Shown: one piece after another, positions 14,690 through 50,587 of the stretch
Layout of the letters: every line of letters starts with the position of its first letter
Numbering within the stretch: the stretch's first letter is position 1
Virus record (IMG/VR): IMGVR_UViG_3300032323_001724
Location: 1-51,925 of that record
Source: a virus
Reading direction: 5' to 3' (one strand)
Length of the DNA stretch: 51,925 nt
The notes under the pieces: generated by a model
Told to the model about the DNA's origin: nothing
The model's input: only the letters and a program-made list of their open reading frames with translations
The model's database searches: none
Translations under genes and position numbers: made by a program

Positions 14690-14719
14690 AAAAGGACTGC
14701 TTGACACAGTCCTTTTTTT
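14690..14719 (+). terminator. Rho-independent terminator after the lysis operon
   Basis: AAAAGGACTG (14690-14699) pairs perfectly with CAGTCCTTTT (14707-14716), leaving a 7-nt loop (CTTGACA) and a run of T residues. The loop contains the -35 hexamer of the following promoter. Confidence 0.88.
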
Positions 14720-14729
14720 ATCATATACT
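14701..14729 (+). promoter_or_regulatory. Consensus sigma70 promoter for dnaJ-clpA
   Basis: TTGACA at 14701-14706, a 17-nt spacer and TATACT at 14724-14729. The -35 box is the loop of the terminator hairpin. Six bases separate the -10 from the ATG at 14736, so the predicted transcription start coincides with the start codon. Confidence 0.8.
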
Positions 14730-18575: not shown

Positions 18576-18578
18576 TTG

Positions 18579-18944
18579 ATGAGCAGAGAAACCATAGTAT
18601 TATTATCAAATATTACCGACGACAGTCAGCCCTCTACGTGGCAGTACGGTGAAAAACACATAGGTGCAGGCTACTACAAAAACGGTAATGGTGTGCATAC
18701 TATGACCTTTGAGCTGGACGAGTTCAAGGGCAGTATCAAAGTACAGGCCACTCTAGATCTTAATCCCGGCGTCAACGACTGGTTTGATGTGGTTCTTGAC
18801 AGCTCAGACACTGTGTTAACTGCTATAGACAGCACGCCTGTCACTTCCAACGCTGCCTGCACATTTACTGGTAAATTTGTGTTTATACGTGTGGCTTATC
18901 AGTTGGAACAGGGCACAATCACCGAAATCCGATATAATCACTAA
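18579..18944 (+). CDS. Small beta-rich, probably structural protein
   Basis: 121 aa from the ATG at 18579; a TTG immediately before it is in frame but less likely. The composition (Thr/Ser/Asp, alternating hydrophobics) and segments such as TWQYGEKHIGAGYYKNGNG indicate a beta-sandwich. No enzymatic motif is visible. It is probably a virion or fibre-associated protein, since it lies at the start of the head/internal-protein block. Confidence 0.6.
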   Translation: MSRETIVLLSNITDDSQPSTWQYGEKHIGAGYYKNGNGVHTMTFELDEFKGSIKVQATLDLNPGVNDWFDVVLDSSDTVLTAIDSTPVTSNAACTFTGKFVFIRVAYQLEQGTITEIRYNH

Positions 18945-18956
18945 ACTGTTTGAGAC

Positions 18957-18964
18957 GATAAATA
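18957..18964 (+). promoter_or_regulatory. Candidate T4-type late promoter box GATAAATA
   Basis: GATAAATA in a 44-nt intergenic gap, 24 nt before the ATG at 18989. The predicted start is near 18970. Its last base is the first base of the hairpin at 18964-18990. Confidence 0.65.
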
Positions 18965-18990
18965 TAGTATGACCTCCCGAGGAATACTAT
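18964..18990 (+). promoter_or_regulatory. Hairpin sequestering the ribosome-binding site and start codon of 18989
   Basis: ATAGTAT (18964-18970) pairs with ATACTAT (18984-18990), leaving a 13-nt loop that contains the GAGGA ribosome-binding site. The AT of the start codon is in the 3' arm. A late transcript starting near 18970 would lack almost all of the 5' arm, so the hairpin should form only in read-through RNA. Confidence 0.6.
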
Positions 18991-20233
18991 GAGAGACTTG
19001 TTATCTAAGTTAGACGCTATCGTAAGCGAAACAGAATTAAAAAATCCCGAAGACCTTCAGGCTAAACGCAAAGCCCTTCAGGATTTGCAAATGGATCCCG
19101 TTGCTTCTCAAGATCCAGAAATCAAACAAGCAATTATACAGCGCAAATCCGATCTTGAAAAAGAGGCCAAAGCCAAAGGATTTTCGGAATCATTTCAGAT
19201 AGGTGATGCATTTGGTATTAGCTTTAGTGAAGATCACGAAATTGCCACAGAAATCGTAGACATTCTAGAAGATGGAATTGTAATCGAATTAGATGACACT
19301 GCATTAGATATGCTGACCAATGAAGGGCTAGAGTTCTTAGAAGGCGAATTAGTAGAAGACAAACAAAAAGGTGTTGATGGCAAGGCCTGTTGGAAAGGCT
19401 ACAAGCGCATGGGCACCAAACAGAAAGGCGGCAAGACCGTAGACAACTGCGTTAAGATGGAAGATCACGGTCCTGAGGATCCTAAAGATCCAGTAAACTA
19501 TGGAGAATACGATCGCGAAGGCGATATGGCCAAGGACGATCTACGTACCATAGACAGTGCCGCTGAAGAATTATACAGCATTCTACAAGCAGACGACAAT
19601 CTCCCAGAGTGGGTGCAGAGCAAGATCACCAAAGCCGTAGACTACATCGACACAGCTCGTGATTACATGAAAGCACAGAAGTATGAGGAAGGTGTGACGG
19701 AAGGTTCGGCACACGGTTATAATGTTGCTAAATGGTACGAAAAAAATGGTGATCAAAAGAAACTTACAAACTGGCTACGTAAAGAAGCAGGATTAGAAAA
19801 AAATGCTCCACTTTACTTTGATGATGTTGATCTAGTACATGGCGATAAGACTATTGTTCCTAATGCATTAATTAATCCTAAATTAAAATTCAACGATTTA
19901 TTAACAGCTGTTGTACAAGCCACTGGCGGCACACCAAAACAGAATGTAGACGGAGTTTATAGATCGCAAGGTGTAGCAGAAGATGATGTAGATGAAGCCA
20001 AATATCAAGGTCGAGAAGTACCACTGGGCAAGAAGATGGCCGGCGATGTAAAAAAATCTAAAGTATATGTGCGCAAGCCTAATGGCAACATTGTCAAAGT
20101 AAACTTTGGCGATAAGAAAATGCGTATTAAAAAATCCAATCCAGCACGTAGAAAATCATTCCGTGCTAGACACAATTGTAAAAACCCAGGACCTCGTTGG
20201 AAAGCCAGATACTGGTCTTGCAGGAGCTGGTAA
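18989..20233 (+). CDS. Probable head/internal structural protein with basic Cys-containing C-terminus
   Basis: 414 aa. The N-terminal third is acidic and helical. A central KACWKGYKRMGTKQKGGKTV...NCVKM motif recurs in structural proteins of marine T4-like phages. The C-terminus (KKMRIKKSNPARRKSFRARH, followed by a GPRWKARYWSC segment) is strongly basic with aromatic and Cys residues, suggesting DNA or capsid interaction. It follows a candidate late promoter with a hairpin switch. Next to other proteins of similar style, it is inferred to be packaged or to act in head assembly. Confidence 0.7.
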   Translation: MRDLLSKLDAIVSETELKNPEDLQAKRKALQDLQMDPVASQDPEIKQAIIQRKSDLEKEAKAKGFSESFQIGDAFGISFSEDHEIATEIVDILEDGIVIELDDTALDMLTNEGLEFLEGELVEDKQKGVDGKACWKGYKRMGTKQKGGKTVDNCVKMEDHGPEDPKDPVNYGEYDREGDMAKDDLRTIDSAAEELYSILQADDNLPEWVQSKITKAVDYIDTARDYMKAQKYEEGVTEGSAHGYNVAKWYEKNGDQKKLTNWLRKEAGLEKNAPLYFDDVDLVHGDKTIVPNALINPKLKFNDLLTAVVQATGGTPKQNVDGVYRSQGVAEDDVDEAKYQGREVPLGKKMAGDVKKSKVYVRKPNGNIVKVNFGDKKMRIKKSNPARRKSFRARHNCKNPGPRWKARYWSCRSW

Positions 20234-22953: not shown

Positions 22954-23278
22954 ATTTGTTGTAGAAAAACGCCGCAAGCGTAAGCCTCGGTGGGCTGCGT
23001 ATGGCCCAGGGCCGTATGGCGGTTACGGGTATGCTACTGGATACAGTGGCGATGGCGGCAGCAGTGGTGACGGAGGCGGTGGTGAGAGCATTGAGCATGA
23101 AAACTTTGCAGATGGTAAAAAGCCTGGTCGTAAAGGACTTGCTAAACGCAGTGGAGTCAATACCAAAGCCAGTGTTAGCAGCCTAAGAAAAACTGCTAAA
23201 AATTCATCAGGTGAAAAAGCTCGCATGGCACATTGGTTAGCTAACATGAAAGCCGGTCGTGCTAAAAAGAATAAATAG
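22940..23278 (+). CDS. Basic Gly-rich putative internal head protein
   Basis: 112 aa. It starts with a short leader (MRASEFVVE) like the targeting leader of T4 internal proteins, then KRRKRKPRW. A Gly/Tyr/Ser-rich stretch with repeated GG and GDGG follows. The C-terminal half is strongly basic (GRKGLAKRSGVNTKASVSSL). The composition suggests DNA binding or packing in the head. It overlaps the preceding gene by 14 nt. No enzyme motif is seen. Confidence 0.65.
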   Translation: MRASEFVVEKRRKRKPRWAAYGPGPYGGYGYATGYSGDGGSSGDGGGGESIEHENFADGKKPGRKGLAKRSGVNTKASVSSLRKTAKNSSGEKARMAHWLANMKAGRAKKNK

Positions 23279-23284
23279 TATATC

Positions 23285-23533
23285 ATGAAAATAAGAGATA
23301 TTTTAGAATCAGCTACAGCAGGCGCTACTTCATCAGGGAGTATTGCCACTGTGGTTAATCCGCATCTCAGCCCTGGAAAAGCTCGTGGTAAACAGAGCTA
23401 TACAGGAAAACCCGGAGGCCCAAGCGGTACTAAAGCACCTCCTCAACCCAAGCCTAAAAAGGTAAAACCCACGGATAATGCACTGGATATGAAGACCAGC
23501 TTGTTCGGTGAAGGTAATGCCATAAAGAGATAA
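23285..23533 (+). CDS. Small basic protein with head-targeting-like leader
   Basis: 82 aa. MKIRDILESATAGA contains ILE|S, an (I/L)xE|(A/G/S) prohead-protease-type site directly after a short basic leader. The rest is Pro/Lys/Gly-rich and probably disordered (PPQPKPKKVKPTDNALDM). It lies between two other putative internal proteins. AATAAATA at 23270-23277 is upstream but overlaps the previous stop. Confidence 0.6.
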   Translation: MKIRDILESATAGATSSGSIATVVNPHLSPGKARGKQSYTGKPGGPSGTKAPPQPKPKKVKPTDNALDMKTSLFGEGNAIKR

Positions 23534-37549: not shown

Positions 37550-37737
37550 AATCATGGACCTTAACAGTTGCCGAAGATGGGCTTTTACCATTACCGCAGG
37601 ATTTATTAGATGAAGCTGGATGGAAAGAAGGCGATTGTTTAAATTGGGTTGACAATAACGACGGTTCATGGAGTATTATCAAAGAGGACTTGACAAATTT
37701 CATACATAAAGGTATAATAAAGCATGACAACAACTAA
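37546..37737 (+). CDS. AbrB/SpoVT-like small DNA-binding protein
   Basis: 63 aa. LTVAEDGLLPLPQDLLDEAG and KEGDCLNWVDNNDGSWSI follow the swapped-hairpin pattern of AbrB/MazE-type antitoxin or regulator domains (long 'xLTVxxDGxxxLPxxLL...GWxxGD' motif). It is coupled by ATGA to the previous gene. Its 3' end contains the promoter of the following gene, so an autoregulatory role is possible but unproven. Confidence 0.65.
   Translation: MKSWTLTVAEDGLLPLPQDLLDEAGWKEGDCLNWVDNNDGSWSIIKEDLTNFIHKGIIKHDNN
37690..37718 (+). promoter_or_regulatory. Perfect consensus sigma70 promoter
   Basis: TTGACA at 37690-37695, a 17-nt spacer and TATAAT at 37713-37718, inside the end of the AbrB-like gene. The next start codon (37724) follows after 5 nt, so the mRNA is predicted to be leaderless. 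Confidence 0.8.
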
Positions 37738-38992
37738 TCCTAAAGGTTCATGGCCATTTGCTCCAAGCGATGCTCCGGAACCAACTGCTGAAGAATTAGC
37801 CGCACAGAATCTAGCAGAACAACAAAAACTCATCGAAGTTCTGAAGTTCACACCACGCACTTATAAAATTAGCATGTGGGGTTACGGTGGCGAAAAAGTC
37901 ATGGGTACAGTAGACAAAAAGATTTGGGACTACTGTATGGAGAATCATGTTGACTTGTCAGAGATCGCATGGAGTGATGAAGATACTGTACAAGAAGAAA
38001 TGAGTCTTGATCTAGACATGCTGCCATTCACACCAGGCTCGTGGTACGAGTGTGATGACATGGGACACATCAATGGTGTTAGTCGCGATGCTGGTACTAT
38101 TCAAATTGAAGACGAAAACGGCAACACAGTATTGGAACGCTCACTAGATAGCATTGACGGAACCGACATCGGATTAAGTTGTAGTGACGAAGTGTGGGCA
38201 GGATCGAAGCCCAAAGGCACTGTAGTGTTTATTGGTTCAAGCAACGAAAAAGGCACATTCTTTGAAGGTGAAATTGAACTCCGTGCACCTTTTGATATTG
38301 AGAAATTAGAATTAAACTACGATGAGTTCGACGGTGAAGATATTATTACCAGCGTGACCTATGACGGTGAAGACATCGATAACTGGGGCGGCAGCACAGA
38401 CGGCAAAAGTTCAGACATGAACATGGTCTTGATCACAGACGACCAAGGCAATTGGGAACGATACGACCCAGAAGAAAAAGATTGGGGACATCCTCCAATG
38501 GGGACAAGTCCAAGTGATTGGGAAAAGTCTCCTAAATTTAAATTTGCAAAAGTTAAACCTACAATAGAAGGTTGGTATAGTTGCGTTTGGAAAAGCTATG
38601 GAACAACATATGGCACAGCATATTGGAATGGTACAGAGTTCGGCGAATGGGAGTACGGCAAGTTTAAACCGATCTCTGGGGTAGAAACTTGGAATGGTTA
38701 TAATTGGGATACAAGCTCGTGGGTCAATCAGCCTCCAGAACCCGTAGATGCAAAATGTAATAATAAAAAATGCGGTTGGACCGGCATGCGTGGCGACATG
38801 AGAGAAGACGACGACTATAATAATCATTGTCCAGAATGTGACGGTACAGACTTTGACTGGATTGATTACGACCCAGATACCAAAGAAGGTCGTGCTAATC
38901 GTAAACAGTATTGTAAACCATGGGATCCAGAAGTATCGATGGACAGAATTATCAAAGCATTTCCTATTGAAGAGAAGAAAATAAATGAGTAA
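37724..38992 (+). CDS. Large acidic protein with zinc-ribbon-like C-terminus
   Basis: 422 aa, expressed from its own consensus promoter. It is rich in Trp, Asp, Gly and Thr. Residues around 345-372 hold CNNKKCGW and HCPECDG, a CxxxxC...CxxC zinc-ribbon. No catalytic motif is seen in the rest, which has repeated Trp-Tyr segments (TYGTAYWNGTEFGEWEYGKF). The function is unknown. It overlaps QueE by 8 nt. Confidence 0.7.
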   Translation: MTTTNPKGSWPFAPSDAPEPTAEELAAQNLAEQQKLIEVLKFTPRTYKISMWGYGGEKVMGTVDKKIWDYCMENHVDLSEIAWSDEDTVQEEMSLDLDMLPFTPGSWYECDDMGHINGVSRDAGTIQIEDENGNTVLERSLDSIDGTDIGLSCSDEVWAGSKPKGTVVFIGSSNEKGTFFEGEIELRAPFDIEKLELNYDEFDGEDIITSVTYDGEDIDNWGGSTDGKSSDMNMVLITDDQGNWERYDPEEKDWGHPPMGTSPSDWEKSPKFKFAKVKPTIEGWYSCVWKSYGTTYGTAYWNGTEFGEWEYGKFKPISGVETWNGYNWDTSSWVNQPPEPVDAKCNNKKCGWTGMRGDMREDDDYNNHCPECDGTDFDWIDYDPDTKEGRANRKQYCKPWDPEVSMDRIIKAFPIEEKKINE

Positions 38993-39848
38993 AATTAAAA
39001 TCGCAGAGCTGTTCTACAGCATACAAGGTGAAGGCCGCTATATGGGTGTGCCTAGTGTGTTTCTCCGTACATTCGGTTGTAACTTTAAATGTGCAGGCTT
39101 TGGTATGCCACGTGGCGAAATGAGTCACGAAGCTACTGATATTGCGGCCACACATAAAATGATCGAGTCTTTTCAAACATACGGGGAACTTCCACTGGTA
39201 AGTACAGGCTGTGATAGTTATGCATCATGGATGCCAGAGTTTAAAGATCTTAGTCCAATGCTTACTACAGATGCAATAGCAGAACGCATTATGGAAATCT
39301 TACCTTACAAGCGTTGGGAAGATGAACATCTAGTTATTACAGGCGGAGAGCCATTGTTGGGATGGCAACGTGCTTATCCAGATCTGTTGAATCATCTGAG
39401 TATGGCAGGTCTTAAAGAAATTACATTTGAAACAAATGGTACCCAGCGTCTTACTCCTGAGTTTAAAAAATATCTGTTAGAGTGGGCACAGAATCCTCCT
39501 TTCGTTAGCAGAGAAGTTACATTCTCAGTAAGTGCTAAACTCAGTTGTTCAGGAGAAGAAAGGTCAGAAGCCATACTGCCTAACGTAGTGTGTGAGTATC
39601 AAGAAGTCGGCACTACCTATCTTAAATTTGTAGTTGCTACTGAAGAAGATGCTGAAGAAGCCTTAGAAACTCTAGACATATATCGTGCAGAAGGATTTAC
39701 TGGTCATTGCTATCTCATGCCTGTGGGTGGGGTTGAGTCAGTGTACACACTAAATAACCGTCGTGTAGCAGAATTAGCAATGAAACATGGGCTTAGGTAC
39801 AGTGATCGACTACAGGTACCGTTGTTTAAGAATGAATGGGGAACTTAA
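38985..39848 (+). CDS. queE: QueE-like radical SAM 7-carboxy-7-deazaguanine synthase
   Basis: 287 aa. FYSIQGEGRYMGVPSVFLRT (10-29) is the QueE N-terminal signature. The cluster motif is split: Cys32-x3-Cys36, then Cys76 in TGCDSYAS, where QueE normally has the third Cys followed by DT. LVITGGEPLLGWQ and ITFETNGTQ are the SAM-binding and following motifs. It converts CPH4 to 7-carboxy-7-deazaguanine. It starts within the preceding gene (8-nt overlap) and ends in TAATG with the next. Confidence 0.88.
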   Translation: MSKIKIAELFYSIQGEGRYMGVPSVFLRTFGCNFKCAGFGMPRGEMSHEATDIAATHKMIESFQTYGELPLVSTGCDSYASWMPEFKDLSPMLTTDAIAERIMEILPYKRWEDEHLVITGGEPLLGWQRAYPDLLNHLSMAGLKEITFETNGTQRLTPEFKKYLLEWAQNPPFVSREVTFSVSAKLSCSGEERSEAILPNVVCEYQEVGTTYLKFVVATEEDAEEALETLDIYRAEGFTGHCYLMPVGGVESVYTLNNRRVAELAMKHGLRYSDRLQVPLFKNEWGT

Positions 39849-40288
39849 TGAAAAAATTTGTAGAAAGACTATTTGGCATAGACAAGATCAGAGCAGAGGC
39901 TGAACGTAGTATGATTGTCGCAGCCGAAGCTGCCGAATCAGCTAAAGCAGCCACTGCCGCTGCCGAACGTGCCGCAGAAGCAGAGGCGCAGGCCAAACTA
40001 TCACCAAAAGAACGTGCAACACGTAAAAAAGAGCCGTGGGTAGGTGTACTCGAAACACATGTCAACAAAGATAATGTGCGTAATGGCTTTTTTGAGCTTG
40101 ACTGGAACGACCTTTTTGTGTTAAAATTAAAGCAAGAGGGATACGGTGAGGACGGGGACAAGGACGAAGAAATCATAGATCGTTGGTTCCGTGAACTGTG
40201 TGCCAATGTAGTAGTCGATGGTGACTTTGGTGGTCCTGTAAACACAGGCGTAATTGATATTAAAACAGTGAAGAAAGACAATCTATGA
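39848..40288 (+). CDS. Ala-rich coiled-coil protein
   Basis: 146 aa from the ATG of the TAATG junction with queE; a start four codons earlier is inside queE. Residues about 15-50 form a long Ala/Glu helix (AAEAAESAKAATAAAERAAE). The rest is a small ordered domain (KDNVRNGFFELDWNDLFVL, VVVDGDFGGPVNTG). No family can be named. It overlaps the RNase H gene by 4 nt. Confidence 0.7.
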   Translation: MKKFVERLFGIDKIRAEAERSMIVAAEAAESAKAATAAAERAAEAEAQAKLSPKERATRKKEPWVGVLETHVNKDNVRNGFFELDWNDLFVLKLKQEGYGEDGDKDEEIIDRWFRELCANVVVDGDFGGPVNTGVIDIKTVKKDNL

Positions 40289-41292
40289 CATATATCTTAG
40301 TTGATACAGCAAACACATTCTTTCGTGCCCGTCACGTTATCAACGGTGACGCTGATATCAAACTAGGCATGGCGTTCCACATTACCTTAAACAGTATTCG
40401 CAAGGCGTGGCAGCAATTCGAAGGCAGTCATGTCATATTCTGTTTAGAGGGGCGCAGCTGGCGTAAGGATTATTATGCTCCTTATAAGGCGCAACGTGCT
40501 GCTCAACGTGCTGCACATACAGAAAAAGAAGCAGACGAAGAAAAAATCTTCTGGGAAGCTTTTGATACATTTAAAGAATTTATCACAGACAAGACCAACT
40601 GCACCGTACTACAGAATCCACGCCTTGAAGCAGACGATCTTATTGCTGGGTGGATTCAGAGTCATCCAAATGACAAACACGTGATTATCAGTACAGACAC
40701 AGACTTTGTTCAATTAATTGCACCCAATGTCACACAGTACAACGGTGTAATGGAAACCACTATTACACACGAAGGAATATTTGATGACAAAGGCAAACCA
40801 GTCATTGACAAGAAAACACAAGAGCCCAAGCCAGCCCCTAATCCAGAGTGGCTGTTGTTCGAAAAATGCATGCGTGGTGATACCAGTGATAATGTCTTCT
40901 CAGCGTATCCGGGTGTACGTACTAAAGGCACAAGCAAAAAAGTGGGTCTTACAGAAGCGTTCGAAGATCGTAACAGCAAAGGCTATGCGTGGAACAATCT
41001 CATGCTTCAGAGATGGTCTGACCACAACGGTCAAGAGCATCGTGTGTTAGAAGATTACGAACGCAATCGTCGACTGATTGATCTAAGTCATCAACCCGAT
41101 GACATCAAAGAGATAATTGTAAACACCATTACCACTGCTACTGCTGAACAAAAGAATGTGAGTCAAGTTGGTATAAGATTAATCAAGTTCTGTAATCTAT
41201 GGGATTTGAAAAAGATTGCTGATCAGGCACAGAGTTATGCAGAACCACTTAACGCAAGGTATATCAATGAAACTCAAACCTTGTCAGTATGA
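40285..41292 (+). CDS. rnh: T4-type RNase H, 5'-3' exo/flap nuclease
   Basis: 335 aa against 305 in T4. Residues expected for the FEN family are present: ILVDTANTFFRAR, EADDLIAGW, ISTDTDFVQL and MRGDTSDNV, which provide the conserved Asp/Glu cluster. It removes RNA primers and flaps during lagging-strand synthesis. It is overlapped by 4 nt with the coiled-coil gene. The C-terminus is slightly extended. Confidence 0.92.
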   Translation: MTYILVDTANTFFRARHVINGDADIKLGMAFHITLNSIRKAWQQFEGSHVIFCLEGRSWRKDYYAPYKAQRAAQRAAHTEKEADEEKIFWEAFDTFKEFITDKTNCTVLQNPRLEADDLIAGWIQSHPNDKHVIISTDTDFVQLIAPNVTQYNGVMETTITHEGIFDDKGKPVIDKKTQEPKPAPNPEWLLFEKCMRGDTSDNVFSAYPGVRTKGTSKKVGLTEAFEDRNSKGYAWNNLMLQRWSDHNGQEHRVLEDYERNRRLIDLSHQPDDIKEIIVNTITTATAEQKNVSQVGIRLIKFCNLWDLKKIADQAQSYAEPLNARYINETQTLSV

Positions 41293-41335
41293 AGACACCT
41301 GTGAAATTAAAACAGATACCTGTTGGGAGAACACA

Positions 41336-41812
41336 ATGACAGACATACATGCTAAACCTATAATCGCAAATAAATTTTGGATTGTAGAAGAGAACGGTGA
41401 GAAGATTGCTACCCTGAGAAAAGACGATGACAATAGATTTTTCATGAGCAACGAGTCAGGCGTGACCATCTATGAAACCAAAGACAGCCTCACTCGGCAG
41501 TTTGGTAAAAAGTTTTTCACTGTAAAGATTGTCAAAGAAGCAGATACAGCACTGCCTAATGAAGTTCATGGTTATGCTACCAGTACCGAACCGCACAACG
41601 CCATGTTTGACATTCGCAAGAAACTTCCACTGTTCACAAAAAGCAGCGATTCAAAAAGTTTATATTGTGCAGGCTACTACTGTATCAAATTCGACAAAGG
41701 ATGGGTTAAGAGTTTTTGTCCTAAAAAGATTACACTAGAACGTTATCCATACAAAGGTCCGTTCAAAACAGAATTAGAGATGAAACAGGTATTAGCTAAT
41801 GTCACAAAATAA
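41336..41812 (+). CDS. Hypothetical protein
   Basis: 158 aa from the ATG at 41336, which has TGGGAGA at a suitable distance. An in-frame ATG at 41267 would add a Cys-containing N-terminus overlapping rnh. It is an alpha/beta sequence (NKFWIVEENGEKIATLRKDD, YCAGYYCIKFDKGWVKSF). No family is recognised. It overlaps the next gene by 14 nt. Confidence 0.6.
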   Translation: MTDIHAKPIIANKFWIVEENGEKIATLRKDDDNRFFMSNESGVTIYETKDSLTRQFGKKFFTVKIVKEADTALPNEVHGYATSTEPHNAMFDIRKKLPLFTKSSDSKSLYCAGYYCIKFDKGWVKSFCPKKITLERYPYKGPFKTELEMKQVLANVTK

Positions 41813-42047
41813 TCTGCCAGATACACTACCTACCATACAGAAACTACTTCAGAGAATTCAAGTAGCCGAACGTAGTCAACAAAAAGAAATACGCATAAGT
41901 TTGCAAGAGGCCCGAGAGCTTACTACAGAATTAGCCCTCATGACTGTGAAACTAGGGCTAACTGTTAGTGAAATACATCAAATGTTGGCTGCAATCAAAG
42001 AAGCTACCACACAAATAGACGTTAAATTCGACGGCGGACAGTTCTAA
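41799..42047 (+). CDS. Helical coiled-coil protein
   Basis: 82 aa, nearly all alpha-helical (LPTIQKLLQRIQVAERSQQK, LTTELALMTVKLGLTVSEIH). The heptad-like pattern suggests oligomerisation. It overlaps the previous gene by 14 nt and ends just before a late promoter. No family is recognised. Confidence 0.6.
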   Translation: MSQNNLPDTLPTIQKLLQRIQVAERSQQKEIRISLQEARELTTELALMTVKLGLTVSEIHQMLAAIKEATTQIDVKFDGGQF

Positions 42048-42053
42048 AAAAGA

Positions 42054-42061
42054 CATAAATA
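42054..42061 (+). promoter_or_regulatory. Candidate T4-type late promoter box CATAAATA
   Basis: CATAAATA in the 42-nt intergenic gap, 28 nt before the ATG at 42090. The predicted start is near 42067. The last A is also the first base of the hairpin at 42061-42091. Confidence 0.6.
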
Positions 42062-42091
42062 TATACGTGGTTAATTAGGAAACACGTATAT
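42061..42091 (+). promoter_or_regulatory. Hairpin sequestering the ribosome-binding site and start codon of 42090
   Basis: ATATACGTG (42061-42069) pairs with CACGTATAT (42083-42091), a 9-bp perfect stem. The 13-nt loop contains TTAGGAA, and the start codon AT is in the 3' arm. It has the same geometry as the hairpin at 18964. Late RNA starting near 42067 would lose most of the 5' arm. Confidence 0.65.
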
Positions 42092-42374
42092 GAGCAGACC
42101 CAAACCTAAAATTCTTTTAGAATATGCTAACAAAGAAACCTACAAGGTTGAGCAGATCCTTGACTCGGAAGCTATCTGGGCTGTGTTCTATAACGGCCAG
42201 CCTTTCAATCTCAAAAGTGGTAGTCTAGTAGCCAGCTACCCCGGACCGAAATACAAAAAGGTCTCATTTTCAAATCCAGGACATGCGCATAATTTGGCAA
42301 AGAAATTAAATCGATTGTTCAAGACCAAAGACTTTGCTGTGTACAAACTCACTGCAGGTGAAGAGATTAAATGA
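42090..42374 (+). CDS. Hypothetical small protein, probably late
   Basis: 94 aa. It is a small mixed-fold protein with YPGPKYKKVSFSNPGHAHN and a Lys-rich C-terminal helix (LAKKLNRLFKTKDFAVY). It has its own late promoter box and hairpin. No family is named; conservation in T4-like phages is likely but cannot be checked here. Confidence 0.65.
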   Translation: MSRPKPKILLEYANKETYKVEQILDSEAIWAVFYNGQPFNLKSGSLVASYPGPKYKKVSFSNPGHAHNLAKKLNRLFKTKDFAVYKLTAGEEIK

Positions 42375-42375
42375 T

Positions 42376-42774
42376 ATGAATAAAGATGCCTATACCAAGG
42401 CGTTCTTACAGGCAGCAGAATTACCCGTCAATGAAAAAAATATCAAAGACTATAAAGCCGTATGGTGGTGGAGTTTCAGAAAGAAAGATCAAGGCGGTTT
42501 AAGATTAACTGAGCAGGCCTTGGAATTCATTGAAGAACATGCTAAAATAAAAACTTATAAGATAGAATTTCCCAAAGAATTTGCTTTCACACCACAGGTG
42601 CTGCTTTGGTTAGACAATTATATCGATTCACCATTTTTCGTCAACAAAAAACACATCATCGTAATGAAAGAAAAAGCTGCGTTTGAACTATATTTGCTCA
42701 GTGGCGATGTTCGCAAGTTGGGACACAATAGAGCCATGAGTAAAAGACTTAGCCAAGAATCCACCCCCGAATAA
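42376..42774 (+). CDS. Hypothetical protein
   Basis: 132 aa from the ATG at 42376, two bases after the previous stop region; an upstream in-frame ATG overlaps the previous gene. It is aromatic-rich (DYKAVWWWSFRKKDQGG, FAFTPQVLLWLDNYI) and alpha/beta. Co-transcribed with the previous gene. The function is unknown. Confidence 0.6.
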   Translation: MNKDAYTKAFLQAAELPVNEKNIKDYKAVWWWSFRKKDQGGLRLTEQALEFIEEHAKIKTYKIEFPKEFAFTPQVLLWLDNYIDSPFFVNKKHIIVMKEKAAFELYLLSGDVRKLGHNRAMSKRLSQESTPE

Positions 42775-42782
42775 TCCCACTG

Positions 42783-42790
42783 TATAAATA
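42783..42790 (+). promoter_or_regulatory. Perfect T4 late promoter box TATAAATA
   Basis: TATAAATA exactly matches the T4 late -10 element, 8 nt before the ATG at 42799. No ribosome-binding site lies between, so a near-leaderless late transcript is predicted. Confidence 0.65.
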
Positions 42791-42798
42791 TTTTCACT

Positions 42799-43068
42799 AT
42801 GTTTGACCTTAATCCAATGGATGTACTACAACAGCGAAAGCTGAAGACCGTAGCTCCTCATTTCGCTGAATTGAATATCACAGATTCTGAGATATTTGAA
42901 GGTATCGAAGACTGGATTAAAGTCAAGCTCAAGGGCAGATATTATATCTGTAAAAAACCTGCTCTGGACAAGAGTGGGAATCTTAGATCTTCACATTTTG
43001 TAGGATTTGAAGATCAAAAAGAATTAACCTATTTCATGCTTGCATGCCCACACCTAAGGAGAAACTAA
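42799..43068 (+). CDS. Hypothetical small protein
   Basis: 89 aa. It opens with NPMDVLQQRKLKTVAPHFAE and is followed by an acidic, then basic segment (WIKVKLKGRYYICKKPALD). It may be a small beta-barrel. It is coupled by TAATG to the next gene. It is expressed from a late box, so late or structural function is inferred. Confidence 0.65.
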   Translation: MFDLNPMDVLQQRKLKTVAPHFAELNITDSEIFEGIEDWIKVKLKGRYYICKKPALDKSGNLRSSHFVGFEDQKELTYFMLACPHLRRN

Positions 43069-43316
43069 TGTCAGAAGAAGTTAAAGATCAAGTTGCAGCA
43101 CAGGCAGTTGCACCTGCCGAAACAGCAGCACCTGCTGAAGCAGCACCCACAGCACAGGCTCCTGATTTAAATATCAGCGATCTGATGGCTGTAAAAAATA
43201 TCATCGAAGTTGCAACAAGCAGAGGAGCGTTCAAAGCAGCAGAATTGGAAGCAGTTGGTAAAAGTTTTAACAAACTAAATTCCTTCCTTGAAGCTGTATC
43301 TAAAAAGGAAGCCTAA
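43068..43316 (+). CDS. Small Ala-rich helical protein
   Basis: 82 aa from the ATG of the TAATG junction; a start eight codons upstream is inside the previous gene. An Ala/Pro/Glu-rich N-terminus (about 1-32) is followed by a helical domain (ISDLMAVKNIIEVATSRGAF, LEAVGKSFNKLNSFLEAV). The pattern recurs in T4-like cyanophages as far as I recall. The function is unknown. Confidence 0.65.
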   Translation: MSEEVKDQVAAQAVAPAETAAPAEAAPTAQAPDLNISDLMAVKNIIEVATSRGAFKAAELEAVGKSFNKLNSFLEAVSKKEA

Positions 43317-43967
43317 ATGAGAAGCTTAAAACACATAGGTAGAATTCAAAACACAGGTGCCAAGGTATTGGTGGTGTTTAGAACTCTGCCCGGAGAGTCA
43401 AACATGGCTCTTGTATTACCCGTAGCTCAACTGCCTGATCAATACCATGATTCGATTATGACATTGGTAGAAACTGATCAAGCGCAGGACGCATATGAGT
43501 TCGGTGAAATCATGCACATACGTCCATTTCCTGATGGCAGACCTATGCTGCGGGCTATGCAAGCAGATGGCAGGCTAATCAAAGTGGCCACTGATGCTGT
43601 AATGATGACTCCTACTACCAACGACTCCGTGCTGTTAGCTAATCTTAACACACTGATCGCGGAACAGAAGAACTGCACTGTGGATGATCTATGCACATTT
43701 GTGGCAGGCGCTCCTTCCGCTAAGGCCGAAGTCAAAGATATAGCGTCAGTAAATGACACAGAACCCGCAGTTGATTCCGACATTCCTGCACCTATCAGAG
43801 CACAGGCTAATACTAACTCTGCACTCAGTGACAAGGATCTAGCAAAATCATATCGCAGTCAGGCAGATGCTATGTATAAAGAAGCAGCGAGATTGCGCAA
43901 AGAAGCAGAAGAACTCGATCCTATTGTGAAGAAAACCAAAAAGGTAGAAGAATCTGTTGATGCCTAA
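43317..43967 (+). CDS. Conserved-looking protein with helical C-terminus
   Basis: 216 aa, contiguous with the previous stop. The N-terminal half is a small beta-rich domain (IGRIQNTGAKVLVVFRTLPG) with MHIRPFPDGRPML. A Pro/Ala/Asp linker leads to a Lys/Glu-rich coiled coil at the C-terminus (KSYRSQADAMYKEAARLRKE). It may be an assembly or DNA-associated protein. No family is recognised. Confidence 0.65.
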   Translation: MRSLKHIGRIQNTGAKVLVVFRTLPGESNMALVLPVAQLPDQYHDSIMTLVETDQAQDAYEFGEIMHIRPFPDGRPMLRAMQADGRLIKVATDAVMMTPTTNDSVLLANLNTLIAEQKNCTVDDLCTFVAGAPSAKAEVKDIASVNDTEPAVDSDIPAPIRAQANTNSALSDKDLAKSYRSQADAMYKEAARLRKEAEELDPIVKKTKKVEESVDA

Positions 43968-44265
43968 TCCTTTGTTTAAACCTCCTCGACATCTTGTAAA
44001 AGAATGGCCAGAGGTTTTTGAAGATCTTTATATGAATACCATGCCTGTAGCCTATCTGGATTCGGTGAGGTTAGATTTCATCGATGGCCGGGTATGGGAG
44101 ATCGATGTAAAGAATGAGCTTACTAAACAGACCGCTGATGGAATTGCTGATGTGTTGGTTAGTACTCTTCAAGAATACAAAGACGAAATTAAAAAAATAG
44201 ATTTCAAAGTTGATGTAGAAAGGCTTAAGAAAGACATCAAGGATTCGTCAAAAAACATTTTTTAG
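43960..44265 (+). CDS. Hypothetical protein
   Basis: 101 aa from the ATG at 43960; a TTG just before it is less likely. It is mainly alpha/beta with an acidic middle (MPVAYLDSVRLDFIDGRVWE) and a Lys-rich C-terminal helix. It ends tail-to-tail with the minus-strand operon, overlapping by 4 nt (TTAG). Confidence 0.6.
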   Translation: MPNPLFKPPRHLVKEWPEVFEDLYMNTMPVAYLDSVRLDFIDGRVWEIDVKNELTKQTADGIADVLVSTLQEYKDEIKKIDFKVDVERLKKDIKDSSKNIF

Positions 44266-45059
44266 TTAATGTTTGCTGCTATAAGGTCAGCCATTTGTTT
44301 GGCTGACCCTTTTCCTGGGTGTATTAAATCTCGAGCTTGATTATCAATAGATACCCAGTCACTTTCTGTATAATGTGCTGTAGATTCAAAAAAACTTGCA
44401 GAATAGTATCTACATTTGTTTTTCCAAAATTCTCTACTGGTCATACTCGTATAAGTGGCATTAAGCATTGATTGGTATGGATTTGCAATAATGCTATCAG
44501 AAAAATGATTGCTATCCCAAGGACCGATGTGTTCAATATCATGCTCATTGAATACTGTGAATCTATCAATATTTGTCCATAATTGAACCACAGCGTGTGG
44601 CGTTGTAAAATTTTTAGACAGCAACATAGAATTTATAAATGAGTGTTGCATTGACGATGCGCTAACTCCCATATTTATCACTGGTCGGTTCAATAACACA
44701 GACAGCTGATGAGAAATTGTTTCATCCTCAGCTATGCCGACTCCAACAGTACACGAACATCCGAATAAAACTACTGCGTTAGTCCAATCAATTGTGTCCC
44801 ATTCGTCTGCTCTATATCCGTTAGAATTACATTTATATGTCACATCCTTGTTTCTGTAGTGCCAGTCGGCAGGTTGTTTTTTGAGATTTTTCTTTAGCAG
44901 ATCAGGTGAGTCACTTGATGAAAATTTATCAGAGATAGGATGAGCATTATCATCTTGTTTTAAGACGTTAAGATCTACATGTGTTAATAAATTTGCTTTG
45001 AGGAAAGGATATTTGAGAAAATATTCAGGATATTTTTCCGCACTACTCCAAATGTACAT
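44262..45059 (-). CDS. SGNH/GDSL-like hydrolase
   Basis: 265 aa on the minus strand. VVLFGCSCTVGVGI is the block I nucleophile motif (GxSxT; Ser follows GC), NMGVSASSMQHS is a block II-like Gly region, and DLIHPGKGSA near the C-terminus supplies the DxxH catalytic pair. Such enzymes deacylate sugars or polysaccharides. It is the last gene of the sugar-modification operon. It contains the terminator hairpin of the opposite strand. Confidence 0.7.
   Translation of the reverse strand: MYIWSSAEKYPEYFLKYPFLKANLLTHVDLNVLKQDDNAHPISDKFSSSDSPDLLKKNLKKQPADWHYRNKDVTYKCNSNGYRADEWDTIDWTNAVVLFGCSCTVGVGIAEDETISHQLSVLLNRPVINMGVSASSMQHSFINSMLLSKNFTTPHAVVQLWTNIDRFTVFNEHDIEHIGPWDSNHFSDSIIANPYQSMLNATYTSMTSREFWKNKCRYYSASFFESTAHYTESDWVSIDNQARDLIHPGKGSAKQMADLIAANIN
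44285..44314 (+). terminator. Hairpin terminator for plus-strand transcripts, inside the opposing gene
   Basis: GGTCAGCCA (44285-44293) pairs with TGGCTGACC (44300-44308), a 9-bp perfect stem with a 6-nt loop, followed by CTTTTCC. The T-run is imperfect. It is within the 3' coding end of the minus-strand SGNH gene and lies just beyond the plus-strand stop. Confidence 0.55.
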
Positions 45060-45060
45060 G

Positions 45061-46092
45061 TTAAGCCCCTACAATAAACTTATGTAATTCGCTGGCAAAC
45101 AAATCATGCCCTTTGGCACTGGGATGACAACACACTGTTACCCAATGATTCGGTGTGCCTTTACCGTTGAAATCCCAGAATCCCACATTCTTTATTCCTT
45201 CTTGGGTAAGACATAATTCCATAAAGGTCAAACATCCTTGCGGTTTGAACATTTTATCCCAAGGCCATTGATCCACAATAGCATCAAGAGTTTTCTCATT
45301 GGAATTCTGAATGCCATTTGTGTCTTCGACATGCTTAGTTATTTTTTGATTCTCGTCACGGATGACTGTCCATCGAATTATATTTTTAAAATCAGTTTGA
45401 TTATATGTTTTATCAAACCCAGGAGTAATGATTAATCTTGCGTTTTTTAACTTACACCAGTTTTCTAATTCAATAACATTAGATATCTGTTCCAACATGC
45501 TGGATTTTTCACTGTGTACTGCGGTACCATATCCTTTCCACAGTGTTTTACGAGGACCATCTTGCTGATCTTCATACCATGGCCACATGCAATGAAACTT
45601 GCTGATTTCATCAACATTATTACCCAGTTCGTCACTGATGAAATCAAAACGTTCAGGACCGCTAGGCACATAGATCACAATAAGTTCATCAATGTTGTGC
45701 CAGTCTATCTGCGGATGAAAATATAAACTCTTGATAGATGCTCTATTACCTTTGCCACTAAGACCAAAATTAATAGCAGTATACTGGGAATTAAAATATT
45801 TTTTACAGAGTACATTCACAAATGCATTTTTATGCTGCATAAATGACCAATCAATATTGCCGGTGACGTTGGTTCGTAATTCTTTATGTGCCGACAATAG
45901 CTTAGATTTTTCTGCTGTTGTTAGAATAGGTTCCATAGGGACACCGGTCTTCAGCATAGACCAATCATACTGTTCATAGATATCTTGGTCTATCGCTCCT
46001 TGACCTTCTACAAATGAACATCCTAAACTAATTATAGCTTTTCGTGTTCTCTTTAAATCATTGTTTATTTCTGCGATTGTGATATTATGCAT
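45061..46092 (-). CDS. SGNH/GDSL-like hydrolase, second copy
   Basis: 343 aa from the ATG that overlaps the upstream gene by 8 nt; an earlier in-frame ATG would overlap by 44 nt. ISLGCSFVEGQGA is block I, INFGLSGKGNRAS is block II, and VCCHPSAKGHDLFA contains the catalytic His region. It shares the motif order with the preceding gene but is otherwise divergent. It probably acts on the same class of substrate. Confidence 0.68.
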   Translation of the reverse strand: MHNITIAEINNDLKRTRKAIISLGCSFVEGQGAIDQDIYEQYDWSMLKTGVPMEPILTTAEKSKLLSAHKELRTNVTGNIDWSFMQHKNAFVNVLCKKYFNSQYTAINFGLSGKGNRASIKSLYFHPQIDWHNIDELIVIYVPSGPERFDFISDELGNNVDEISKFHCMWPWYEDQQDGPRKTLWKGYGTAVHSEKSSMLEQISNVIELENWCKLKNARLIITPGFDKTYNQTDFKNIIRWTVIRDENQKITKHVEDTNGIQNSNEKTLDAIVDQWPWDKMFKPQGCLTFMELCLTQEGIKNVGFWDFNGKGTPNHWVTVCCHPSAKGHDLFASELHKFIVGA

Positions 46093-47422
46093 GTGCGACC
46101 TTTGACACATAATCTCGTAGAGTTTCAATTGCTTTGGGCATATTAACAGTAGAATTATCTCTAAGCACTTTAAAATTGTGGTCGAGAATATCTTTCATCG
46201 AACTAAACCATTGAATCTTTTTTTCATTTGACATAGCTTTAATATCTTTAAGTATCTGAATAATTGCATCTAATCTATCCCAGGACTCTAAATCATCGTA
46301 TGATTCATCTATAAATCCGTGAAATGTTTTATAACCCAATTCTCTGAGATATCGTAGGCTATGTTTGTTACCGTACATTATAAACGGATGTCTAGTAGCA
46401 ATGGGTTTAAAAGTTTTTTCACTAATAAAGCAAGTATTTTCAGCGAACGATGCTTCACTGACCACACTGATCCATGTATCTAAGGTAGCTTGATAATTCA
46501 AGTCTTGTTCAAATAAATTCCCCATCGGGCCTTCGAATCCATGTTTTTCTGTTTCTTTGAGATTGTTTCTGGGATACATAGGTAACATATGCTTGTAAGA
46601 ATTATACACATCCTGATCTAACATCCGGCCGTCATAATATCCTTTGTGAAATGAAAAAGCGTTCATGCTGTTGATTCCGTCGTCAAGCAATCCGTGCTTG
46701 TACAGACTGTCAAATAACCAAATACGATGCGGCCTAGATCTCTTTTGAAATGCATTGTATAATTTAATATCGCTGATATTTTTTGTTTTATAAGCAATTT
46801 GTTTTTCTGATGTTGGCAACAGGTACCATTGATTGCTCGCGCATTCATGAATGTATTTTTCAAAATGTATGTAAGGAATTACACACATCTCATCATTAAT
46901 TTTTCGGGATAAACACCATTCGTTATATTGTTGTGTCACTGCAAGATTTCCCGTGACATATATAACCCTACTGGCACTTATTTCATACTGATCGCAGCCA
47001 GTATGAAACCAATCAAATAACCAATCTGTATGATAGCCTTCATGAGACTGATCAAGTAATAAGTAGCATTGATTGTTACGTAGAGCTGATAATTGTTCTG
47101 TGTCTAAAAATGCAAACACAGATTTTCGTTGTGATATCGGTGAATCGTATTCTTTGTCAAGGTCAGCTGATCCGCACCAATCCCACGGAGCATGTGCTAC
47201 TCCGGTTGGTATTATATAACTTACCGATGATTTTCTATCACTCCATTGATCAAATGTCACAGTGTCTGCATCTAGTTGATCAGCATACAGGCGTTGAGTT
47301 TTGATTCGAGATAACACTGCGGCTAACGGACTGGGCGGAAATTTACGAATGTTGGAAGTATTCTTTTCCTCACATCTCGTAATATTCATTAATTCGTCAA
47401 CGTTTTCAAAAATAAAATTCAT
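46085..47422 (-). CDS. Exostosin/GT-like protein
   Basis: 445 aa. The segment SEKTFKPIATRHPFIMYGNK, followed by LRYLRELGYKTFHGFIDESY, is typical of exostosin- or fucosyltransferase-like enzymes (donor-binding EKTFKPI). The N-terminal half is divergent. It may transfer a sugar in virion or host glycan synthesis. It overlaps the oxygenase gene by 4 nt (ATGA). Confidence 0.65.
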   Translation of the reverse strand: MNFIFENVDELMNITRCEEKNTSNIRKFPPSPLAAVLSRIKTQRLYADQLDADTVTFDQWSDRKSSVSYIIPTGVAHAPWDWCGSADLDKEYDSPISQRKSVFAFLDTEQLSALRNNQCYLLLDQSHEGYHTDWLFDWFHTGCDQYEISASRVIYVTGNLAVTQQYNEWCLSRKINDEMCVIPYIHFEKYIHECASNQWYLLPTSEKQIAYKTKNISDIKLYNAFQKRSRPHRIWLFDSLYKHGLLDDGINSMNAFSFHKGYYDGRMLDQDVYNSYKHMLPMYPRNNLKETEKHGFEGPMGNLFEQDLNYQATLDTWISVVSEASFAENTCFISEKTFKPIATRHPFIMYGNKHSLRYLRELGYKTFHGFIDESYDDLESWDRLDAIIQILKDIKAMSNEKKIQWFSSMKDILDHNFKVLRDNSTVNMPKAIETLRDYVSKVAHA

Positions 47423-48207
47423 GACCTATTCCATTGTTCTACATTAATTCCGTTGGCAATACTGCGGCGGGCAATCAGTTGTTGTATTTCAATATTATCT
47501 TTTTGTTGTTCTGTAGGTGCAAATAAGGCTCTGCTTCTAGGGTCAACATTGTTTGGCGGATCTGTCAAATAATACATAGCGATACTATTTCTTGTGATGC
47601 CAGTTGGAGATTCCACCGCGGTGGTTAATCCGTGCCATGTACGTTGTGTGGTATCAAATATCACTGCTCTGTTGAACATCGGTGATACTGTTTGAAATAT
47701 AGTAGTAGGGCCACTGCTATCCGAATTCCAGATTCCGAAATCTCCGCCCCATGATGTTTGCCATTTAGGAGTAAGATAAATTATTAAATTATATTTACGT
47801 TGGAGATGCAGCTTGGGATGAACACTGTAATCTAGATGAGGATTTAATTTTCCGCCTTGCGGATAACAGTGTAGGCCACCGCCATGTATGCCAGGATCTG
47901 TATATAAATTTGTAGTTCCAGTTAGCCCAACAAGTAGATCCGTGAATTGCTTAGAGTTTAACCAGTATATTAACTGATATATGCTTTGAGGGAATCTATC
48001 CCAGATGTTACAGGTACGTTTAAGTTCGATCTGGTTGTTGTATGTGCCATTATACATTCCAGAGTCGTAGGCAGGAAAATCTTCTGCAATTTTGTCTGCA
48101 ACAGATTCTTGTAGAAAATTATCAATAACACAATACGAATACGTAGTGCTATTGAACCTGTCAAAGGCCTTTTCTATATTTTGTAAATTAATTAAATTAC
48201 TAACCAT
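47419..48207 (-). CDS. 2-oxoglutarate/Fe(II) oxygenase
   Basis: 262 aa. PHLDYSVHP with His124 and Asp126, WHGL with His192 and RNSIAMYYLT with Arg206 form the HxD...H and 2OG-binding Arg set of prolyl-4-hydroxylase-like dioxygenases. Substrate is unknown; protein, sugar or nucleobase hydroxylation are possible. It overlaps the epimerase gene by 16 nt. Confidence 0.85.
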   Translation of the reverse strand: MVSNLINLQNIEKAFDRFNSTTYSYCVIDNFLQESVADKIAEDFPAYDSGMYNGTYNNQIELKRTCNIWDRFPQSIYQLIYWLNSKQFTDLLVGLTGTTNLYTDPGIHGGGLHCYPQGGKLNPHLDYSVHPKLHLQRKYNLIIYLTPKWQTSWGGDFGIWNSDSSGPTTIFQTVSPMFNRAVIFDTTQRTWHGLTTAVESPTGITRNSIAMYYLTDPPNNVDPRSRALFAPTEQQKDNIEIQQLIARRSIANGINVEQWNRS

Positions 48208-49217
48208 CTGTCATTCTTTAAAGTCCAGTGTATAGATTCCTCTAATCGCTTGTATACTGGCTGAGGAACCCATCCCATCTCTTTCATCTTACTACCGTCA
48301 AGAGCATATCGCAGATCGTGTCCAGGTCGTTGACTGTGAAAATCTAACATTTCGTAATTCAAAGATTTACCTTGAACGTCGGCGATGTATTGTGCAAGTT
48401 CTAGATTATCAATTTCTGTTGAACCTACAATATTAAATTTTTGACATTTTGCGCCACCGGGGTCTGCTGGCAGCTTAGACAGATCTTGTTTATATAGAAA
48501 CAACAGTGCGTCTGCTACATCTCTGGCGTGAATATAATGTCGTGAACCTGCTTTGGTTTTTTCCGGGTTTGAGTGAATAGAAATTTTTTGATTATCTCTT
48601 ACACGCTTTATGCACAGCGGAATATATTTTTCTGGGTGTTGTCTTTCACCAAATACGTTCATGGTATGTGTAATTATTGCAGGTAATTTATATGTGTTTT
48701 CATATGCTACTACAAATTCTTCTGCGGCGGCCTTGCTGGCACTGTATGGATTAGTTGAATTATATCGATCATTTTCTTTGTAATTAATTCCGTATGGTGC
48801 AGGTCCGAATACTTCGTCGGTGGAAAAATAAACAAATAAATCTAAACTATCTAAATTACGAGCATAATCCATTAAATTCACAGTTCCAACTACATTGTCC
48901 TGTACGAATTCCATAGGATATGTAATTGAACGATCTACATGACTGCCTGCCGCAAGATGTGCAATAATATCTACTCTGCCTATCATCGATCTAATTTGTG
49001 GATTCAATTCTGCTTTTAAATCATGATGTATCACCCGCACCCTCTTACGCTCTCTCTCAGAATAACTGGACACTACTTCGTGTAATCTATTCAAATTACC
49101 GCTGTAGTCTAATCTATCTAAAGTTACAATTCTCCAATCAGTTTCGGATAAAAGTTTATCAATTAGATGATGAGCAATAAATCCTGCTCCTCCGGTGATT
49201 AATATTGTTTTGCTCAT
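48192..49217 (-). CDS. Extended SDR, dTDP-glucose 4,6-dehydratase-like
   Basis: 341 aa. GGAGFIA (9-15) is the NAD-binding motif, STDEVFG (132-138) and YSASK with Tyr158 and Lys162 match the RmlB catalytic set (including Thr/Asp/Glu). The sequence RPGHDLRYALD is the sugar-nucleotide region. The enzyme would make a 4-keto-6-deoxy sugar nucleotide. It overlaps the radical SAM gene by one base (TAATG). Confidence 0.88.
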   Translation of the reverse strand: MSKTILITGGAGFIAHHLIDKLLSETDWRIVTLDRLDYSGNLNRLHEVVSSYSERERKRVRVIHHDLKAELNPQIRSMIGRVDIIAHLAAGSHVDRSITYPMEFVQDNVVGTVNLMDYARNLDSLDLFVYFSTDEVFGPAPYGINYKENDRYNSTNPYSASKAAAEEFVVAYENTYKLPAIITHTMNVFGERQHPEKYIPLCIKRVRDNQKISIHSNPEKTKAGSRHYIHARDVADALLFLYKQDLSKLPADPGGAKCQKFNIVGSTEIDNLELAQYIADVQGKSLNYEMLDFHSQRPGHDLRYALDGSKMKEMGWVPQPVYKRLEESIHWTLKNDRWLVI

Positions 49218-50587
49218 TATATTGTCTCCTTGCAGTCTTTATAAAAGTTAGCCAATTCTGGAAATGTATTTACAAAATCGGTGCCACGACGTCTGTCATA
49301 TTCAGTAAACCAATTAAAAAGGTCTCTACGCCCCTCTTTTATTTTTTCTGGGGTATAGATAGCTGATTCCATGTATTTTACGACTCTTTCAAATTTAGCA
49401 TACTCTAAGTCGTTGAATTTGCTGCGGTTTTTATCGTCTAGATTGGCTAGAATGAAGTCTAGGTGACTTTGCATGTAAGGCATAAACTCATCTTTAGGTA
49501 ATAAATTCATATCATATTGCAATGGCTCTTTTAAGTAGGGTGTATCAAATCGCACACGCTGCCATTTGTTTTGATTAACACCATTGTATTTTTCACGCCA
49601 TTCTAGTATCTTTTCTAATAGACTTCGGAAGTTAGTTACTGTGAGAATATTAAAGGTACACATAAATGTGATCGGTAGCTGTGTTTGAGTTAGATAGGTA
49701 TCTAAGTTACGTTCCCACACAGTTAAATCCAATCCTGTGCGAATGTATTCTGCAGGCGAACCCCAAGTATCCATACTGGTAAAAATTTTAAAATCGTTGA
49801 TGCATCCGTTGGCAATTAAGTTATTGATTTTTTCTACCAGCCTATCAATCAAAACTGGTTTGACTCCGAAGTTGGTGTTGATGTTTAATTCAAGATCAGG
49901 CAACGGATTAACTAATAAATCATCTAATAACTTCCAGGTACTAGATTGCAATAACGGCTCGCCTCCTGTAATACGTAGAATAGTCAAGGTCTTACGTACT
50001 TCAGGCCACCACCGCCACCATGCTTCAACATAGGGATTAGTTTCTTCTTCGTAGATTTGAAACCAATCAATATCGTTGCGATGATTCTTAACCATAGTGT
50101 AAGGACCATAATCTTTGATCTCTTTGTAGTAAGCACTGCTGTGTTTGGGATGGCAGTATCCGCATTTAAAATTACACTCGTTGCCAAAACTAACTTCTAT
50201 ATACTGCGGATTTATATTTTGATCCCAATCGCCTTCTTTGATCTGTTGGAATCTTTGATCTGTGTAGATTGTTGAGTTGCGTTCTTTACGATCGCTAACG
50301 TAGTCGTCTCCCATGGCTTCTATGTTCCAACAGTAGTTACACCCGCTGGGTTTTCCACCGTTGAGCATTTCTAATCGTTCGTGTTTCTTTTGATTGGTGT
50401 TATGTAATGCACTTGCATCTATAACAATCTCATCTAAAGGAATCTTATGAGGAGCTGGATGATAACAACTATGTGTTTCGCCTGTTTGCAAATAGATAGT
50501 GGTGTGGTGCCACTTCGCCATACAGAAGGTCGGCGATATCTCATTCATTATAGGAATGAATTTTTTAATTCTTGCTATATCGTCCAT
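49217..50587 (-). CDS. Radical SAM protein with N-terminal cysteine cluster
   Basis: 456 aa from the ATG at 50587 with AAGGAAC upstream; an earlier in-frame ATG would overlap the preceding gene further. CNFKCGYC gives Cys138, Cys142 and Cys145, and RITGGEPLL follows. Cys22, Cys41, Cys83 and Cys86 lie N-terminal to the core and may bind an auxiliary cluster, like a SPASM/twitch domain placed first. Substrate is unknown. It lies in the sugar-modification operon. Confidence 0.85.
   Translation of the reverse strand: MDDIARIKKFIPIMNEISPTFCMAKWHHTTIYLQTGETHSCYHPAPHKIPLDEIVIDASALHNTNQKKHERLEMLNGGKPSGCNYCWNIEAMGDDYVSDRKERNSTIYTDQRFQQIKEGDWDQNINPQYIEVSFGNECNFKCGYCHPKHSSAYYKEIKDYGPYTMVKNHRNDIDWFQIYEEETNPYVEAWWRWWPEVRKTLTILRITGGEPLLQSSTWKLLDDLLVNPLPDLELNINTNFGVKPVLIDRLVEKINNLIANGCINDFKIFTSMDTWGSPAEYIRTGLDLTVWERNLDTYLTQTQLPITFMCTFNILTVTNFRSLLEKILEWREKYNGVNQNKWQRVRFDTPYLKEPLQYDMNLLPKDEFMPYMQSHLDFILANLDDKNRSKFNDLEYAKFERVVKYMESAIYTPEKIKEGRRDLFNWFTEYDRRRGTDFVNTFPELANFYKDCKETI

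Follow-up and report, generated by a model that had tools for sequence, protein, structure and literature searches.

The question raised by this locus is whether a hairpin that overlaps a late-promoter box at one end and a start codon at the other determines when the gene behind it is translated. The gene encodes a 94-aa protein and lies close downstream of a sigma-factor-like gene, being preceded by RNase H, sigma-like and 82-aa genes. It is found in an IMG/VR virus record of 51,925 bases, the whole of which was analysed and is referred to here as the window. The virus carries a T4-type DNA polymerase (phrog_262), for which the best named relatives are Sinorhizobium phage Phosso and Agrobacterium phage Atu_ph07; no DNA-level relatives of positions 38000-50000 were found in the phage collection. 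The features discussed below are collected in Table 1.

Table 1. Positions in the window of the two box-hairpin elements, the genes behind them and their upstream context.
Feature	Position	Strand	Remarks
Late-promoter box CATAAATA, T4-type NATAAATA	42054..42061	+	Read directly in the sequence
Hairpin 5' arm ATATACGTG	42061..42069	+	First arm base is the last box base
Hairpin loop GTTAATTAGGAAA	42070..42082	+	13 nt; SD-like AGGA at 42077-42080
Hairpin 3' arm CACGTATAT	42083..42091	+	Covers the SD-AUG spacer and the AU of AUG
Predicted late transcription start, inside the 5' arm	42067	+	Box end + 6, T4 rule
94-aa protein gene, predicted to be under hairpin control	42090..42374	+	Conserved in IMG/VR phages
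First-copy late box GATAAATA	18957..18964	+	
First-copy hairpin TATAGTAT / 13-nt loop / ATACTATG	18963..18991	+	Over the ATG at 18989; arms at 18963-18970 and 18984-18991; loop carries GAGGA
Predicted late start, first copy	18970	+	T4 rule
Second gene predicted to be regulated, 414 aa	18989..20233	+	
Candidate early sigma-70 promoter TTGACA-17-TATAAT	37690..37718	+	12/12; upstream of 42090
RNase H / 5'-3' exonuclease gene	40285..41292	+	PF02739 1.8e-19, phrog_107
Sigma-factor-like gene	41216..41812	+	phrog_12780 RNA polymerase sigma factor, E 1.6e-5
82-aa gene between sigma-like gene and hairpin	41799..42047	+	Weak PHROG match, E 0.0057; predicted to share the read-through unit
Candidate early sigma-70 promoter, near-consensus	14701..14729	+	11/12; upstream of 18989

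Direct reading bears out the anatomy that a first-pass annotation of this DNA had described. The box ends on the first base of the 5' arm, position 42061 being common to both; the stem is a perfect one of 9 bp, with the ribosome-binding site in its 13-nt loop as had been claimed; and the AUG does enter the 3' arm, the A and U of the ATG at 42090-42092 being paired. A U-G wobble between 42060 and 42092 extends the stem to 10 pairs. The predicted fold has an energy of -10.2 kcal/mol (z -3.7), and none of 200 dinucleotide shuffles folds as well. The annotation had also pointed to a first copy, before the 414-aa gene, with the same offset from the box and the same loop length, and to the two genes being unrelated; the former is seen in the sequence of both copies, and BLASTP of the two proteins agrees with the latter. 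The hairpin of this first copy folds with -8.0 kcal/mol and beats 195 of 200 shuffles.

The box NATAAATA behaves as a late promoter in these phages, a TATAAATA-like box being enriched upstream of genes. Of 138 matches in the window and three large contigs, 107 have an ATG within the next 65 nt downstream, while for permuted boxes the proportion is about 10%. A genome-wide set was also assembled from the contigs of six large relatives (G018-G023; 195-282 kb each, 1.47 Mb in all) together with the window; for this set, and for the promoter and leader counts, genes were called simply as the longest ORFs, with ATG as the one start codon allowed. It contains 188 genes with a NATAAATA box, 117 of them with a leader of at least 12 nt. 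By the usual numbering, T4 late transcripts start 6 nt after the box. In 55 of the 188 cases the box lies 4-5 nt before the ATG (40 at exactly 5, and none at 10-13), and this peak supports the +6 rule, since it places the AUG at the predicted start. In T4 itself, about one helical turn separates the late box from the start downstream of it (PMC2988020).

We consider it likely that both genes are controlled by a translational timing switch of the type found at T4 soc, e, 49 and I-TevI. Early in infection, host sigma-70 RNA polymerase would start at 37690-37718 or at another upstream promoter and would continue across the RNase H and sigma-factor genes and on into the 94-aa gene. Within the long RNA so made, 42060-42069 would pair with 42083-42092 and lock both the start codon and the spacer between it and the SD, so that the 94-aa protein would not be made from it. 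Later, the phage late sigma factor would start RNA about 6 nt after the box, at 42067. The late RNA would lack one side of six of the nine base pairs, the stem could not form, and the AUG would be translated. The gene at 18989 would be switched by the same steps. A promoter-hairpin switch over the start codon had already been suggested from the first reading, and the suggestion is supported by the comparisons with shuffled sequence, by covariation of the arms, by loss of the fold in the late RNA and by the early-promoter context.

The loss of the fold was assessed by modelling how much energy it takes to open the start region (-15 to +6) in each RNA. For the 42090 start the modelled cost is 8.9 kcal/mol in the read-through RNA versus 2.4 in the late RNA, which is predicted to retain three of the nine pairs from its start at 42067; the difference is 6.5 kcal/mol, and 1 of 300 shuffled leaders matches it. 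For the 18989 start the corresponding costs are 9.0 and 3.2, with a difference of 5.9 (reached by 2 of 300). In four other late leaders of the window the difference is not above that of their own shuffles. The first contact of the 30S subunit with the SD in the open loop might still occur despite the stem. At the first copy, a late-promoter-like box at 18567, belonging to the next gene upstream, could feed RNA into the gene at 18989, and read-through there need not be early.

The switch model predicts that the device should sit where early transcription would enter a late gene, and the neighbourhood of both copies is consistent with this. No terminator-like sites were found on the + strand between the 37690-37718 promoter and 42090, or between the 14701-14729 promoter and 18989. 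All 14 genes of the two hairpin families, in seven sequences, lie in co-directional runs. A strong sigma-70 site is present within 6 kb upstream of 10 of these 14 genes, compared with 4 of the 103 remaining late genes with long leaders (Fisher 1e-8, a value that overstates independence because the 14 genes represent only two families). The product of 41216..41812 is a candidate for a gp55-type late sigma factor, an assignment made from one PHROG match; its sequence gave no match in PDB or NCBIfam.

Relatives of each of the two proteins were collected from IMG/VR, 80 for each. All 81 leaders compared for the 94-aa gene, those of the 80 IMG/VR relatives among them, have the NATAAATA box. A stem with a score of at least 12 is found in 57 of 62 distinct leaders of this gene, being absent from the other 5, and in 27 of 28 distinct leaders of the 18989 family. 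In three leaders of the 94-aa gene (L038, L046 and G020 107652) the 5' arm TATGCGTG is retained with no matching 3' arm.

A MAFFT alignment of the 94-aa-gene leaders put the 3' arms in the wrong place, and pairs were therefore counted by stem register and by permutation. At box+4 the pair is A-U in 40 leaders, G-C in 12, G-U in 4 and U-A in 1; at box+8 it is G-C in 19 and A-U in 18. With their own arms the leaders have a mean stem score of 19.8; exchanging the 3' parts between sequences brought this down to 16.4 on average, and none of 1000 permutations exceeded 17.75. On a protein tree (built from few columns), the A-U/G-C label at box+4 requires about seven changes. In the 18989 family most stem pairs are invariant and the covariation rests on one inner pair (C-G, G-C or U-A); its score is above that of all 500 shuffles, but the arm permutation is weaker, the leaders' own arms giving 17.00 against a permuted maximum of 17.15.

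What is kept across relatives is the position of the 5' arm with respect to the box and of the 3' arm with respect to the AUG. The length of the loop is not: it ranges over 5-19 nt in leaders of the 94-aa gene and 10-17 nt in the 18989 family. The two equal 13-nt loops are therefore a coincidence, and equal loop length as the sign of a copied module is ruled out. The first-pass annotation had taken the identical geometry of the two copies as an argument against chance; that the elements are not due to chance is upheld by the shuffles and the covariation, though the identity of the loops adds nothing to it.

These observations bear on the alternative that the inverted repeat acts as a DNA operator, with a dimeric protein bound to both arms blocking the late promoter. 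In its favour are the palindromic arms, which overlap the promoter, and the precedent of the T4 homing endonuclease I-TevI, which autorepresses through a site over its own late promoter (PMC2988022). However, a dimer on DNA would hardly tolerate arms whose spacing is as free as that seen here, G-U pairs are tolerated in the stems and are common, the 3' arm keeps its place at the AUG, and the arms differ between the two copies. We regard the operator as having only a slim chance of being correct.

Processing of phage messages is common, and the hairpin may alternatively be a site for RNase III or RNase E that parts the early message from the late gene. It would form in the read-through RNA only, and it sits at a gene border, as this reading would have it. 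However, a 9-10 bp stem is short for an RNase III site, it is the AUG and not the gene border to which the 3' arm is tied, and the T4 analogues work by a translation block (PMC3014915). Processing is likewise given a slim chance. Stable 5' stem-loops protect some phage mRNAs, and, the late start being a predicted one, the hairpin could instead work within the late RNA as a 5' stabiliser or an aid to translation. Against this, the T4 rule, together with the AUG peak at 4-5 nt, places the start of the late RNA inside the 5' arm with most of the stem gone, and a stem over the AUG would reduce translation; this is very improbable.

The comparison put forward with the first annotation, of a box followed by an inverted repeat at an ATG against shuffled sequence, favours the element. 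With a criterion close to the original one, the hairpin is present in 13 of the 117 long leaders of the genome-wide set, whereas shuffled leaders give a mean of 1.75 and at most 7 in 200 runs. These 13 leaders all come from the two families, which have 14 members in the set; the hairpin is found in none of the 103 other long-leader late genes of the six contigs and the window (1.3 in shuffles). Among the loci fetched from relatives, 84 of 192 long leaders reach a stem score of 16, compared with 2.8 for shuffled leaders and about 0-4 for control boxes of the same composition; the control box AAATATA was dropped since it overlaps ATAAATATA. The reading that an AT-rich promoter is by chance followed by an AT-rich start region, both regions being indeed AT-rich and ATAT being common to box and start, is refuted by a stem that is conserved and whose arms covary, as well as by the rarity of such stems in shuffled leaders, control boxes and other late genes, and it retains almost no probability.

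The hairpin element is thus real and specific, without wide reuse. The annotation had spoken of a reusable module, and this holds to the extent that the element occurs in two unrelated families per genome and in a few sporadic genes; a module reused over many genes is ruled out, for the six contigs and the window, by the 103 long-leader late genes that lack it. The sporadic cases have a ATAAATATAGTAT-loop-ATACTATG leader before proteins unlike the 18989 family (L189 6868, L196 10428, L224 7990, L239 3673 and L262 9572), and were found with a pattern chosen for those arms (TAGTAT arms). It may be that this pair of arms moves from gene to gene. At divergent gene pairs (e.g. G020 158931, G022 137673), apparent hairpins were rejected, as they resemble overlapping late boxes of opposite direction and not switches. 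Divergent pairs with such overlapping boxes (TATAAATA ... TATTTATA) are found at G020 158931/159905, G022 137673/138657 and G018 26308/27183, and are apparently bidirectional late promoters.

A second arrangement is found among the late genes with the box 4-5 nt before the ATG. An SD-like motif is present in 3 of these 55 genes versus 88 of the 117 with long leaders, and several ortholog groups hold a box-ATG distance of exactly 5 in 5-6 genomes. Near-leaderless places in the window are 42783-42799, 23270-23285 and 18567-18579; the distance is 8 nt at 42783 and 7 nt at 23270, and is kept in most homologs. By analogy with the T4 rule, the late RNA from about 30% of late promoters would begin at or next to an AUG that has no SD. 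It is conceivable, though somewhat doubtful, that these phages tie the identity of the transcript to translation in two ways, by the hairpin at two genes and by a leaderless AUG at this larger group. If so, an SD-less AUG would be silent in the long RNA and become a 5'-terminal leaderless start only in the late RNA, and translation would be the step at which late timing is imposed on a large part of the late genes.

The 94-aa protein is also found in the jumbo phages PA5oct, Atu_ph07, SCTP-2 and Phosso. It has the invariant motifs SRPKP, PGPKYKK and SFSNPGHA (G58-A66 region), and its structure is modelled confidently as an alpha/beta protein (pLDDT 92.5), with no family match and no PDB fold match at E <= 0.001. 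In all four of these named relatives the NATAAATA box lies 27-55 nt upstream of the ATG. In Atu_ph07 the difference in opening cost between read-through and late RNA is 8.2 kcal/mol and is significant (3 of 200 shuffles); in PA5oct, Phosso and SCTP-2 the late box is kept, and the same comparison gives no clear hairpin effect. The protein is seemingly kept silent until late, which makes it a good candidate for a product whose early synthesis would carry a cost, and the conserved leader could serve to mark genes of this kind in uncultured phages.

The closest known systems are those of T4. The translation-timing mechanism has been shown by experiment for T4 e and I-TevI (PMC3014915, PMC2988022), and T4 soc has been named as a case of a leader hairpin with a late promoter (PMC3014915). 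The same analysis, when run on T4, recovers the layout at soc, e, 49 and I-TevI (4 of 4). The arrangement at soc is the most similar: NATAAATA closely precedes the 5' arm, the loop (10 nt in soc) contains the SD, the 3' arm contains the AUG, and the late gene lies behind earlier genes. It differs in being another gene with another sequence, in a 5' arm that begins 2-3 nt after the box, and in a predicted late RNA that keeps a 7-bp remnant, where here 3 bp are left. In T4 e, 49, I-TevI and I-TevII and in Aeh1 mobE, the late promoter is in or beside the 5' arm, as here, and the read-through RNA folds over the start while the late RNA does not (for mobE, by description only). In e, 49 and I-TevI it is the SD itself that is paired in the 3' arm, whereas here it is left in the loop, and the paired bases are those of the spacer and the AU of the AUG. 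T4-like cyanophages (NATAAATA) and the jumbo phage CBB (ATAAATA) have the same late-promoter motif, and the parts of those reports that describe it do not mention a leader hairpin (PMC2984593, PMC5259590). The window has no Rfam family match at gathering score.

At both genes the predicted start lies in the 5' arm, the AUG is covered, the stem shows compensatory change, and the late gene lies in what would be a longer early or middle transcription unit. By anatomy, both hairpins would therefore belong to the T4-type class of switch, with a difference in translation between long and late RNA that is predicted from sequence and modelling. The mechanism is already known from T4; what is new is its assignment to these two genes, for which the literature cited here does not describe it. 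It would mean that long-term selection maintains a textbook device of T4 in large environmental T4-like phages.
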